37,143 nucleotides of DNA, taken from Spirochaetaceae bacterium. Lineage in GTDB: Bacteria; Spirochaetota; Spirochaetia; DSM-27196; PWMO01. The stretch spans positions 1 to 37,143 of the forward strand of contig REDW01000083.1 in NCBI GenBank assembly GCA_007693325.1. The letters run 5' to 3'. The notes beneath the pieces are model-generated. The model was not told the origin of the DNA, did not search any database, and worked only from the letters and a program-made list of their open reading frames with translations. The position numbers were made by a program, and so were the translations under genes. Positions 4,839-19,075 of the stretch are shown here, one piece after another (within the stretch, counting starts at the first letter, position 1; each line of letters opens with the position of its first letter).

Positions 4839-6248
4839 ATGAGTGTAGCTACAGCCGTCGAAAGTCCGGCAATTCTGATCGTAGATGACGATATCGTTGC
4901 ATCCGAGCTCTACGCTACCATCCTGCGCGAGCACGATTTCGATAACCTTCTGCTGTGCGATGATTCTCGGCGGGTGATGGATACGCTGCAGTCCCACCGG
5001 GTTGCGGTAATCCTGCTCGATCTGAACATGCCGCATATCTCCGGGCAGGAGCTGCTGCCGGAGATCACATCCGGGTTTCCCGAAATCCCGGTAGTCATTC
5101 TCACCGGTGAAGACAAGGTCGACACCGCGGTGCAGTGCATGAAGATCGGAGCCTTCGATTTCATGGCCAAGCCGGTTGATCGCAACCGGCTGGTGACCGC
5201 GGTCAGACACGCACTGAAGATACGCGAGCTGCAGGACGAGGTGCACATTCTGTCCACCGCCGACGGTGGAAGCGGGCTTAAGCGCCCGGAGGCGTTTCGT
5301 GAGATTGTCACTGAAAGCCCACAGATGCAGAAACTGTTCCGCTATATGGAGGCGGTAGCCGGCAGCCCCAAGGCCGTGCTGATTACCGGTGAGAGCGGTA
5401 CCGGCAAGGAGCTGGTGGCGCGCGTGATCCACGATCTGTCGCAGAAGGGCGGCGAGTTTGTGCCGGTCAACGTCTCGGGGCTCGATGATACCATGTTCTC
5501 CGACACGCTTTTTGGTCATCGCAGAGGGGCGTTCACCGGGGCCGACAGTAATCGGCCCGGCTTGATCGAACAGGCATCGGGAGGAACACTCTTTCTGGAT
5601 GAAATCGGGGATCTTGAACTCGGCTCACAGGTCAAGTTACTGCGGCTGTTACAGGAGCGCGAGTACTATCCTCTCGGCGCCGACAAGCCGCAATCCAGTG
5701 ACGCCCGCGTTATTGCCGCTACCAACGCCGATCTGAATGCCGAGCAGAAGAGCGGCGCCTTTCGCAAGGATCTCTACTACCGCTTGATTGCGCATCACGT
5801 TCATCTGCCGCCACTACGCCATCGGCTGGAAGACATCCCGCTGCTGGTACAGCACTTTCTGGAGGAGAGCTCGCAGACGCTGGACAAGAAGAAACCGACC
5901 GTACCCAAAGAGCTCTATACACTGCTTGCCAACTACCAGTTTCCCGGCAACGTGCGCGAACTTCAGTCGATGATCTACGACGCGATGAGCCGCCACAGCA
6001 GCGGTATTCTGTCGCTATCGGTGTTTCGCTCCTACATCGAAGAGCAGAGCGGAGCACACTCGGAGGTCGCGGCTGCCGAGGGCGACCAGCCGCTGGCGTT
6101 TGGCGAGCGGCTCCCAACGCTGCGCGAAGCAGAGGATTTCCTGTTCAACGAGGCGATGGTCAGGGCACAGGGCAACCAGTCGATTGCGGCGCGCCTGCTC
6201 GGCGTCTCGCAATCAACGCTCAGCCGCAGATTCAAGCAGTCATCGTAG
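4839..6248 (+). CDS. Sigma-54-dependent response regulator (LuxO/NtrC type)
   Basis: A cytosolic two-component enhancer-binding protein of 469 residues that activates sigma-54 RNA polymerase. The receiver domain (about 10-125) has the acidic pair DDD at 16-18, the phosphorylation site D61 in LLDLNMP, LTGED and the AKP lysine. The AAA+ domain has Walker A GESGTGKE near 181, the sigma-54-contacting GAFTGA loop near 226, and Walker B GGTLFLDEIGDL near 245. A Fis-type helix-turn-helix ends the protein (NQSIAARLLGVSQSTLSRRF). The architecture equals LuxO or NtrC. No histidine kinase is adjacent, so the partner is encoded elsewhere. Its likely binding sites (three TATGC-N5-GCATA dyads) and a -24/-12 promoter lie immediately downstream, making the adjacent intergenic transcript its most probable local target. 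Confidence 0.95.
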   Translation: MSVATAVESPAILIVDDDIVASELYATILREHDFDNLLLCDDSRRVMDTLQSHRVAVILLDLNMPHISGQELLPEITSGFPEIPVVILTGEDKVDTAVQCMKIGAFDFMAKPVDRNRLVTAVRHALKIRELQDEVHILSTADGGSGLKRPEAFREIVTESPQMQKLFRYMEAVAGSPKAVLITGESGTGKELVARVIHDLSQKGGEFVPVNVSGLDDTMFSDTLFGHRRGAFTGADSNRPGLIEQASGGTLFLDEIGDLELGSQVKLLRLLQEREYYPLGADKPQSSDARVIAATNADLNAEQKSGAFRKDLYYRLIAHHVHLPPLRHRLEDIPLLVQHFLEESSQTLDKKKPTVPKELYTLLANYQFPGNVRELQSMIYDAMSRHSSGILSLSVFRSYIEEQSGAHSEVAAAEGDQPLAFGERLPTLREAEDFLFNEAMVRAQGNQSIAARLLGVSQSTLSRRFKQSS

Positions 6249-6264
6249 CAACCGCACCAGATCC

Positions 6265-6296
6265 TATGCGAAACGCATAGCTATGCGTTTCGCATT
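6265..6296. promoter_or_regulatory. Paired enhancer-like dyads (sites 1 and 2) within a 30-bp perfect palindrome
   Basis: Two adjacent 15-bp dyads, TATGC-GAAAC-GCATA (6265-6279) and TATGC-GTTTC-GCATT (6282-6296), have centres 17 bp apart. Together they make a perfect 30-bp palindrome at 6266-6295. They lie about 195 and 178 bp upstream of the predicted sigma-54 start, a usual distance for upstream activator sites. No T-tract follows, so a terminator role is less likely. Confidence 0.6.
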
Positions 6297-6346: not shown

Positions 6347-6363
6347 CTATGCAGCATGCATAG
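6347..6363. promoter_or_regulatory. Enhancer-like dyad (site 3)
   Basis: CTATGC-AGCAT-GCATAG repeats the TATGC-N5-GCATA pattern of sites 1 and 2. Its centre is about 112 bp upstream of the predicted sigma-54 start. Confidence 0.55.
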
Positions 6364-6440
6364 GCTTTCACGGTCGCTCAACCCGGTTTCTTATCGTCTA
6401 TCTTTATGTTTCGTATGAAATTAGAGTTCTCTGACTGTCT

Positions 6441-6456
6441 TGGCACGCATTGTGCT
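6441..6456 (+). promoter_or_regulatory. Sigma-54 (-24/-12) promoter
   Basis: The sequence TGGCACGCATTGTGCT matches TGGCACG-N4-TTGC with one mismatch. The GG (6442-6443) and GC (6454-6455) are exactly 12 bp apart. The expected start is near 6467. It sits just downstream of a gene for a sigma-54 activator and of three activator-like dyads. Confidence 0.75.
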
Positions 6457-6466
6457 ATACGATCTG

Positions 6467-6590
6467 TGCAATAGGTTCTGTGGAATAGTGGTAGCCGAAT
6501 AAGTAAAAATGTCATGTAAAAACGAAGGTAAAAACCTCAAGATCTGGCAGGTGCGAGTCTCGGGTTCGGCCCCGAGGCCGCACCGTTTTT
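6467..6590 (+). ncRNA. Predicted sigma-54-dependent small RNA (about 124 nt)
   Basis: The interval is bounded by the -24/-12 promoter on the left and by a strong intrinsic terminator on the right. It does not carry a convincing gene. The 5' part is A-rich and probably open, with a small AGGT-AAAA-ACCT hairpin at 6526-6537 and an ACCTCAA segment after it. The 3' end is the terminator hairpin with a U-run, as in many trans-acting small RNAs. The arrangement of a LuxO-like activator next to a sigma-54-driven short transcript is like luxO/qrr in Vibrio, but I see no sequence similarity to Qrr RNAs. Alternatively the region is a sigma-54 leader and attenuator for the downstream cheY-like gene. Confidence 0.55.
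6550..6590 (+). terminator. Strong intrinsic terminator
   Basis: GGTGCG (6550-6555) pairs with CGCACC (6579-6584), and inside it CTCGGG (6559-6564) pairs with CCCGAG (6571-6576) around a six-base loop. A run of five T follows at 6586-6590. It would end the predicted small RNA and shield the cheY-like gene. Confidence 0.8.
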
Positions 6591-6620: not shown

Positions 6621-6649
6621 TTGAATTGTTCGACGTTTTCCGCTATAAG
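6621..6649 (+). promoter_or_regulatory. Sigma-70-type promoter for the cheY-like gene
   Basis: TTGAAT (6621-6626), a spacer of 17 bases, then TATAAG (6644-6649). The start would be near 6656, directly before the GGAGG ribosome binding site at 6657-6661. The gene thus has its own promoter downstream of the terminator. Confidence 0.65.
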
Positions 6650-6671: not shown

Positions 6672-7106
6672 ATGAAGAGTAAGGGCGACTTTCCGGCCAT
6701 GAACGAGAAGGATCCCGAGGGACTCAAGCCCGACGGAACCGCCTATCGGGTTCTGATTGTAGACGATTCCATGTTCGTGGCAAAACAGCTGAGCCAGATT
6801 CTCACCTCAGCCGGCTTCGAGGTGGTTGGCACCGCCGCTGACGGCCAGGCCGGCGTGGAAAAGTTCAAGGAACTGCACCCCAAAGTCGACCTGGTAACCA
6901 TGGATATTACCATGCCCAGGATGGACGGCGTGACCGCGCTGCAGCAGATCATGGACTTCGACAAAGATGCACGGGTAGTGATGATCAGCGCGCTCGGCAA
7001 GAACGACCTGGTCAAGAACTCGCTGATGATCGGCGCAAAGAACTACATCGTTAAACCATTGGACCGCCAGAAGGTGCTGGAGCGGATCCTGCATTCGCTC
7101 AAGTAG
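6672..7106 (+). CDS. CheY-like single-domain response regulator
   Basis: A 144-residue receiver-only protein: about 24 extra N-terminal residues, then YRVLIVDDSMF with the acidic pair at 31-32, the phosphorylation site D78 in VTMDITMPRMDG, VVMISALGK and IVKPLD with the conserved lysine. There is no output domain, so it should signal by protein contact, as CheY does at the flagellar switch, or pass phosphate on. No other chemotaxis genes are nearby. The ATG at 6672 is chosen because GGAGG lies 10 bases upstream; a second ATG at 6699 would remove nine residues. The dppB-like gene begins 24 bases downstream with no visible terminator, so they are probably cotranscribed. Confidence 0.85.
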   Translation: MKSKGDFPAMNEKDPEGLKPDGTAYRVLIVDDSMFVAKQLSQILTSAGFEVVGTAADGQAGVEKFKELHPKVDLVTMDITMPRMDGVTALQQIMDFDKDARVVMISALGKNDLVKNSLMIGAKNYIVKPLDRQKVLERILHSLK

Positions 7107-18286: not shown

Positions 18287-19075
18287 ATGATTAGCGAGTC
18301 AGAACGTGGTGGCACAGTGTTTGCCGAAGAGCGCCAGGCCCAGGTAGTCGAGTACGTGCACAAGCACAAGAAGGCTACCGTGCACGATCTCACTGCAGTC
18401 TTCAGTGTTTCCAGCGCTACAATCCGCAACGATCTGCGGGCGCTCGAGCGGCGCGGTCTGCTGCTGCGGACACACGGCGGCGCTATGGTGACCACCAAGA
18501 CCCGCTACGAGGAAGCGCTGCAAGAACGCCACACCCACAACCTGCAGCAGAAGCAGATGATCGCCAATGCGGCGCTCTCTCTGATTGACGACGGCGACAC
18601 CATCATACTCGATACCGGCACAACGGTGCTGGAACTGGCGCGGCTGCTGTTTCACAAGCGCGACCTCACGGTAATAACCAACGACATCGAGATCGCTCGT
18701 GTGCTCGCGGACAGCCAGGACGGCACGCTGATACTGATCGGGGGCGTGGTGCGGAAACAGTTTCGCTGTGCGGTGGGATCGCTGTCGAGCGCCATCCTGG
18801 CGGGGCTGCTGGTGGACAAGGCGTTCATGGCAGCCAACAACTTCGATCTGCACAAGGGCGCCTCCACTCCTGATCTGGACCAGGCCGACACCAAGAAGGC
18901 CATGATTGCGGTGGCGTCCAAGCGCTTCCTGCTCTGCGATCACGAAAAGTTTGGCACCCAGTCTTTTGCGCAGTTTGCCGCGGTCAAGGATTTCGACGTG
19001 ATTGTGTCCGACCGGTTTGAGCCCAGGGAGCAGCGGTTGCTGGAACAGTTGGGCGTTGAGGCGCTCACGCCGTGA
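18287..19075 (+). CDS. DeoR-family transcriptional regulator
   Basis: A 262-residue sugar-phosphate-responsive repressor. The N-terminal winged helix covers about 14-70 with the family signature TVHDLTAVFSVSSATIRNDLRALERRG. The C-terminal ISOCOT-type effector domain has ILDTGTTVLELARLL, LTVITNDIEIA, LIGGVVRKQF, KAFMAANNFD (usually F-x-G) and a final LLCDHEKFG. AGGTGG lies 7 bases before the ATG. It directly precedes the nine-gene sugar operon by 58 bases, so it most likely controls that operon and itself. The inducer would be a phosphorylated intermediate of the pathway. Confidence 0.92.
   Translation: MISESERGGTVFAEERQAQVVEYVHKHKKATVHDLTAVFSVSSATIRNDLRALERRGLLLRTHGGAMVTTKTRYEEALQERHTHNLQQKQMIANAALSLIDDGDTIILDTGTTVLELARLLFHKRDLTVITNDIEIARVLADSQDGTLILIGGVVRKQFRCAVGSLSSAILAGLLVDKAFMAANNFDLHKGASTPDLDQADTKKAMIAVASKRFLLCDHEKFGTQSFAQFAAVKDFDVIVSDRFEPREQRLLEQLGVEALTP

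Follow-up and report, generated by a model that had tools for sequence, protein, structure and literature searches.

What lies between the gene for a sigma-54 activator and the cheY-like gene that follows it in this bacterium, and what controls it? The window, that is, the whole stretch of 37,143 nucleotides analyzed, is contig C1 of draft genome G000 (3.47 Mb), order Spirochaetales. A first-pass annotation had read the interval as a sigma-54-driven small RNA beside a LuxO-like activator, or alternatively as an attenuated leader of the cheY-like gene. Comparison with Spirochaetales and Spirochaetaceae MAGs indicates that it very probably holds an RNA gene controlled by sigma-54 and an enhancer. 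The transcript is predicted; judged by sequence comparison, it would be a small RNA that most members of a bacterial order retain as a separate transcription unit. No earlier description of it was found in the literature searched, which mostly excludes subscription journals; the RNA appears to be previously undescribed, and there is a fair chance that it represents a distinct class if its partner proves to be new.

Order-wide surveys (Hfq, RRM proteins, dyads, and triple arrays) covered 46 genomes. For the orthologue survey, the stop codons of 37 activator orthologues were located and the 330 bp downstream were scanned; a promoter was called where 11 or more of the 13 consensus positions matched with exact GG/GC spacing. 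The nearest relative to the window locus is L024, the activator of which is 98% identical.

Activator gene and sigma-54 promoter

4839-6248 (+): receiver-AAA+-Fis sigma-54 activator (enhancer-binding protein), the probable regulator; Pfam Response_reg, Sigma54_activat, and HTH_8
6440-6456 (+): sigma-54 -24/-12 promoter, TTGGCACGCATTGTGCT; kept in 31 of 37 orthologue loci, with rpoN in the genome

The upstream gene had been described as encoding a receiver-AAA+-Fis protein with a GAFTGA motif, and both the domains and the motif were found. Its orthologues are present throughout the order. It is not an equivalog of LuxO, since it scored 284.8 against model NF041946 (cut-off 800), nor of any other named activator, every cut-off being missed.

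The promoter likewise agrees with its first description: GG stands at 6442-6443 and GC at 6454-6455, with a single mismatch to TGGCACRNNNNTTGCW. This GG/GC spacing and the presence of rpoN in the genome are what is expected of a sigma-54 promoter. When the 330 bp following the activator gene were shuffled by dinucleotides, an equally good match arose in 0.06% of cases. Taken alone the match is weak evidence, because a loose scan of the window (two mismatches or fewer) returned 35 sites where 45 were expected, that is, no excess. It becomes remarkable through its conservation: the first-pass annotation had suggested looking for the element beside activator orthologues, and a near-perfect copy lies within 330 bp 3′ of the gene in 31 of the 37 (0.14 expected from shuffles). 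Several of the orthologues lacking it are explained. The unit has moved in G008 and G021, where about 3.5 kb separates the activator from a promoter-RNA-cheY unit, and in G030, where the promoter-RNA unit is on a different contig from the activator; in G014 (family f2) the array precedes an Ig-like lipoprotein gene. Neither a -24/-12 element nor dyads were found downstream of the activator in G007 and G037.

Elsewhere in the window, a perfect TGGCAC-N5-TTGC match at 18310-18324 falls within the start of the gene at 18287-19075. It has no enhancer dyad pair nearby and is probably due to chance.

Enhancer dyads and co-regulated genes

6266-6278 (no strand assigned): enhancer dyad 1, ATGCGAAACGCAT, 174 bp 5′ of the promoter; conserved position, dyad symmetry, and recurrence with -24/-12 elements elsewhere
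6283-6295 (no strand assigned): enhancer dyad 2, ATGCGTTTCGCAT, 157 bp 5′ of the promoter; same basis as dyad 1
6349-6361 (no strand assigned): enhancer dyad 3, ATGCAGCATGCAT, 91 bp 5′ of the promoter; conserved position

The stretch from the stop codon of the activator to the promoter contains two to three ATGC-N5-GCAT dyads. The three of the window (at -174, -157, and -91), which the first-pass annotation had overlooked together with the three GTAAAAA copies described below, occupy nearly identical places within its genus, and the other families carry similar dyad sites upstream of the promoter. Tandem dyads were detected in 33 of the 46 genomes, as against only two matches for a reversed-pattern control. 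At 30 of the 33 dyad pairs situated elsewhere than beside the activator, a -24/-12 element stands no more than 250 bp away on one side and one side only, the background for such an element near a random position being 0.5% per position. The genes 3′ of these combined sites encode mostly lipoproteins (with CxNPFGSS-like starts) and Ig-like surface proteins, in addition to an outer-membrane-like protein of 186 residues and other secreted proteins. The genome of the window itself has two such promoters besides that of the RNA, on contigs C141 (L089) and C4 (L145).

The dyads are thus probably the enhancer of the activator, their position and co-occurrence being the grounds on which we propose that this protein binds them. 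The pairs of enhancer and -24/-12 element likely define its regulon. A regulon of envelope genes fits the published view that sigma-54 governs the exterior of the cell (PMC3162934).

The predicted RNA and its downstream neighbor

6467-6590 (+): predicted small RNA of about 124 nt, from 12 nt past the -12 GC to the T-run
6503-6534 (+): tandem GTAAAAA array, with copies at 6503-6509, 6516-6522, and 6528-6534; recognized by copy number and 12-nt spacing against shuffles in 36 genomes
6550-6590 (+): terminator, hairpin 6550-6584 and T-run 6586-6590; -28.5 kcal/mol, z -3.7
6621-6649 (+): sigma-70-like promoter of the cheY-like gene, TTGAAT-17-TATAAG; conserved in the genus
6672-7106 (+): CheY-like response regulator, ATG at 6672 after GGAGG; Pfam Response_reg

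The start at 6467 is deduced from the class of promoter. That the interval lacks a gene, as had been claimed, is borne out by its sole reading frame (ATG at 6510), which meets a TGA in L024. The hairpin with its T-run is as strong as had been stated, and the separate sigma-70 promoter of the next gene is kept in the congeners. Among six congeners, two-sided changes occur at four of the ten consensus pairs of the hairpin. A terminator-like hairpin is clear in 19 of 32 loci (9 expected), and for this reason read-through into cheY is possible in some relatives.

The cheY-like gene is a frequent but inconstant neighbor, present in f1 g1, f3, f6, f8, and several f7 genomes. In G006, f4, f5, and f7 g12, where the nearest 1 kb or so contains no cheY, the array is kept. 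Since it persists both without cheY and where the activator lies elsewhere, the array forms a unit of its own. The alternative of an attenuated cheY leader is weakened by this persistence, though read-through leaves it some room in certain relatives.

The GUAAAAA array

The tandem GUAAAAA array is the only feature of the transcribed interval that is common to different families. The promoter unit was found in 36 genomes of eight families, a count that takes in G008, G014, G021, and G030, whose copies have moved or stand free; G040 is a further genome with the unit. The window has three copies of the motif, and its relatives from one (f4) to about nine (G012, degenerate copies counted). Across the 36 genomes 103 copies were observed, compared with 19 in shuffles, and 53 of 70 inter-motif intervals measure 11-13 nt where 0.18 were expected, the usual step being 12 nt; this comparison counts related species separately, and the pattern is present in each of several families. 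Triple arrays gave 20 matches in the 46 genomes, all but two at the RNA locus, and none in the control. In the genera that allowed both to be measured, the motif columns are better kept than the spacers (conservation 0.73 against 0.51, 0.92 against 0.66, and 0.70 against 0.53), most clearly in f1 g1, f7 g12, and f7 g8. The motif always has the orientation of the transcript, and because its steps vary (11-15 nt) no reading frame is kept. A DNA search of the relatives with the window sequence reached congeners only, a consequence of the fast divergence of spacers and hairpin. tRNA, tmRNA, and Rfam scans gave no match at the RNA and none at the locus in relatives. Conservation of this extent strongly supports the promoter, the enhancer, the array, the independence of the RNA unit, and the co-occurrence with envelope genes.

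The two triple arrays away from the locus are in the G014 leader and in a G003 intergenic stretch that follows an outer-membrane-like gene. The former (L254, G014:C35, about 200-270) is immediately 3′ of a -24/-12 element, in the apparent leader of the Ig-like lipoprotein gene, a placement from which it follows that the array may also act in cis. The latter (L154, G003:C55, 1329-1440) has about four to five GUAAAAA copies 12-13 nt apart, between the genes for an outer-membrane-like and a small membrane protein, and the 4 kb examined contained neither a sigma-54 element nor a dyad.

Several families show variations of their own. The f4 loci L045, L049, L052, L061, and L062 have a single motif, AUGUAA(A/U)AACAGG, by a strongly conserved GC-rich hairpin-like stretch, and three f4 genomes have GUAAUAA as their motif. 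The f7 g8 loci L046, L047, L051, L054, and L056 possess an additional GC-rich segment 5′ of the array, which is conserved in part and contains GGGGUG and UUCUGGG. In L151 (G021) and L152 (G008) the RNA contains CACCUCCUUU after the array, which is the sequence found at the anti-Shine-Dalgarno end of 16S rRNA; by virtue of this resemblance, these RNAs could pair with ribosome-binding sites. The idea of mini-hairpins presenting GUAAAA in their loops was rejected, the flanks pairing in six of 74 cases (3.3 by chance) and 22 of 300 shuffles scoring as high.

Mode of action

Protein-titrating RNAs such as CrcZ, RsmY/Z, and CsrB are marked by short identical motifs in repetition, unconstrained spacers, a copy number that varies, and a stable hairpin at the 3′ end, and an RNA of tandem motifs therefore points to titration of the CrcZ type. 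The reading toward which we lean, at somewhat better than even chances, is a decoy RNA under sigma-54 control that titrates a putative GUAAAAA-binding protein other than Hfq. We infer the following course of events. Sigma-54 RNA polymerase would transcribe the small regulatory RNA from the promoter at 6440-6456. The neighboring enhancer-binding protein, probably once its receiver domain has been phosphorylated, would switch this transcription on by way of the ATGC-N5-GCAT dyads about 90-175 bp 5′ of the promoter. The same activator would turn on the envelope lipoprotein genes elsewhere via the same sites. The RNA would display GUAAAAA every 12 nt or so in a largely unpaired region, followed by the 3′ hairpin. 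Several copies of the RNA-binding protein could then occupy the array, and their titration would free the mRNA targets of that protein during the envelope response. The single copy in f4 and the GUAAUAA of three genomes are poor for a sponge. A bolder formulation, in which this is a new class of RNA sponge for a sequence-specific RNA-binding protein in an order without detectable Hfq, its arrays made together with a lipoprotein regulon and the occasional arrays in or next to envelope mRNAs (G014 and G003) their cis counterpart, falls a little short of an even chance.

Pairing of GUAAAAA or the surrounding sequence with mRNAs, as Qrr or multi-seed sRNAs do, would suit a sigma-54-driven RNA beside its activator, the size and terminator of which are typical of such RNAs, and the envelope-stress sRNAs of other bacteria do pair with envelope mRNAs. 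It is nevertheless improbable here. The common part is seven bases long and all but one are A or U, which makes a weak seed; the rest of the RNA diverges quickly; and the complement UUUUUAC occurs exactly in 0 of 586 start regions sampled from the same genome (-60 to +40 windows of crudely predicted genes, in about 0.7 Mb or some 20% of the genome). Hfq-dependent pairing is further disfavored since Hfq was not found in any of the 46 genomes of the order, and for the same reason the partner of the array must be another protein. In Borrelia, the protein presumed to be Hfq belongs to the flagellum and has no RNA-binding activity (PMC11607428).

A cis-acting leader, in which the array and hairpin, perhaps protein-bound, attenuate a downstream cheY-like or lipoprotein gene, draws on the families where cheY follows the array, even after the activator has moved (L151 and L152), on the leader position of the G014 array, and on the 13 of 32 loci lacking a clear terminator. 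We consider it unlikely as the general function, given the arrays that remain without a cheY in reach and the fact that array and cheY are set apart in the window by a strong terminator and a further, conserved promoter. Much less probable still is that the array acts as DNA, as a protein-binding repeat below the promoter, or as the coding repeat of a small-peptide gene. Short direct repeats do stand immediately 3′ of the promoter, and part of the G012 array keeps frame by its 12-nt steps, but with steps of 11, 12, 13, and 15 no frame is maintained and the 10.5-bp helical repeat is not matched (nor is 12 bp a helical repeat of DNA), the window frame is stopped in L024, and the orientation is invariably that of the transcript. 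Finally, a chance combination of promoter-like match and terminator without a transcript, to which the lack of excess of loose -24/-12 matches in the window might lend itself, is scarcely credible when promoter, enhancer, and array are conserved in most genomes of the order.

Comparison with known systems

What stood of the first interpretation is a conserved, sigma-54-driven non-coding interval beside a receiver-AAA+-Fis activator, features shared with Vibrio LuxO-Qrr; the analogy itself did not hold. The activator is far below the LuxO cut-off, Hfq was not found, a tandem motif replaces the conserved pairing region, and Rfam returned no Qrr match at the gathering threshold or with E up to 5.

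CrcZ carries repeated A-rich motifs, and the decoy reading likewise places putative protein-binding sites in a short A-rich repeat, here tandem GUAAAAA. The Pseudomonas CbrB-CrcZ/CrcY system is also alike in having a response-regulator activator gene followed by a separate sigma-54 RNA gene with upstream sites. CrcZ lies downstream of cbrB, is dependent on sigma-54 and CbrB, and antagonizes Crc/Hfq by direct binding (PMC8871633); CrcZ/CrcY RNA titrates an RNA-binding complex (PMC8871633, PMC5501646). The Cbr system has been described only from Pseudomonadaceae (PMC8871633). The present RNA differs in its GUAAAAA spaced at 12 nt, its envelope lipoprotein regulon, and the lack of a detectable Hfq; no Rfam match to CrcZ was obtained at the RNA or at the locus in relatives. 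Lacking both a match to CrcZ and an Hfq to serve in an Hfq/Crc partner, it does not belong to that system, and by analogy it may work like CrcZ without being one.

We know of no repeat RNA or ATGC-N5-GCAT enhancer in Borrelia Rrp2-RpoN. The likeness there is that of a spirochaete enhancer-binding protein and sigma-54 controlling lipoproteins (PMC3162934). Enterobacterial GlmY/GlmZ-RapZ shares a sigma-54-dependent decoy RNA, GlmY, and the envelope theme, and GlmY relieves an RNA-binding protein other than Hfq (PMC7073468, PMC3162934); it has no tandem motif and its RNA is unrelated.

Post-transcriptional control in Hfq-less spirochaetes is little explored, and the locus supplies a well-conserved RNA, a probable regulator, an enhancer code, and co-regulated genes. 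Were the sponge model true, the combination of sigma-54 activator and adjacent decoy RNA would be of separate origin from Pseudomonas CrcZ, would involve a different protein as partner, and would serve envelope control.

Candidate partner and mRNA sites

The GUAAAAA array is a ready-made bait for the partner protein. RRM proteins are common in the order (38 of 46 genomes) and are a lead only; they were rejected as the partner, their distribution not tracking the RNA, and were not detected in several RNA-bearing genomes, e.g., G001 and G041.

Exact GUAAAAA was found in 0 of the 586 sampled start regions of the window's own genome, so that any sites in mRNAs must be degenerate, small in number, or located beyond the regions sampled. 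Genome-wide there are 40 motif sites, and most of the 27 read outside the RNA lie within long ORFs; as a group they were set aside as mRNA counterparts. There is a single candidate mRNA site, and chance could produce it: at L230 (G000:C73:841-847, minus strand) the start of a putative nucleotide-sugar dehydratase gene, presumably so from the look of its N-terminal residues, reads GGGAGGUAAAAACGUG, and the motif overlaps the ribosome-binding site.
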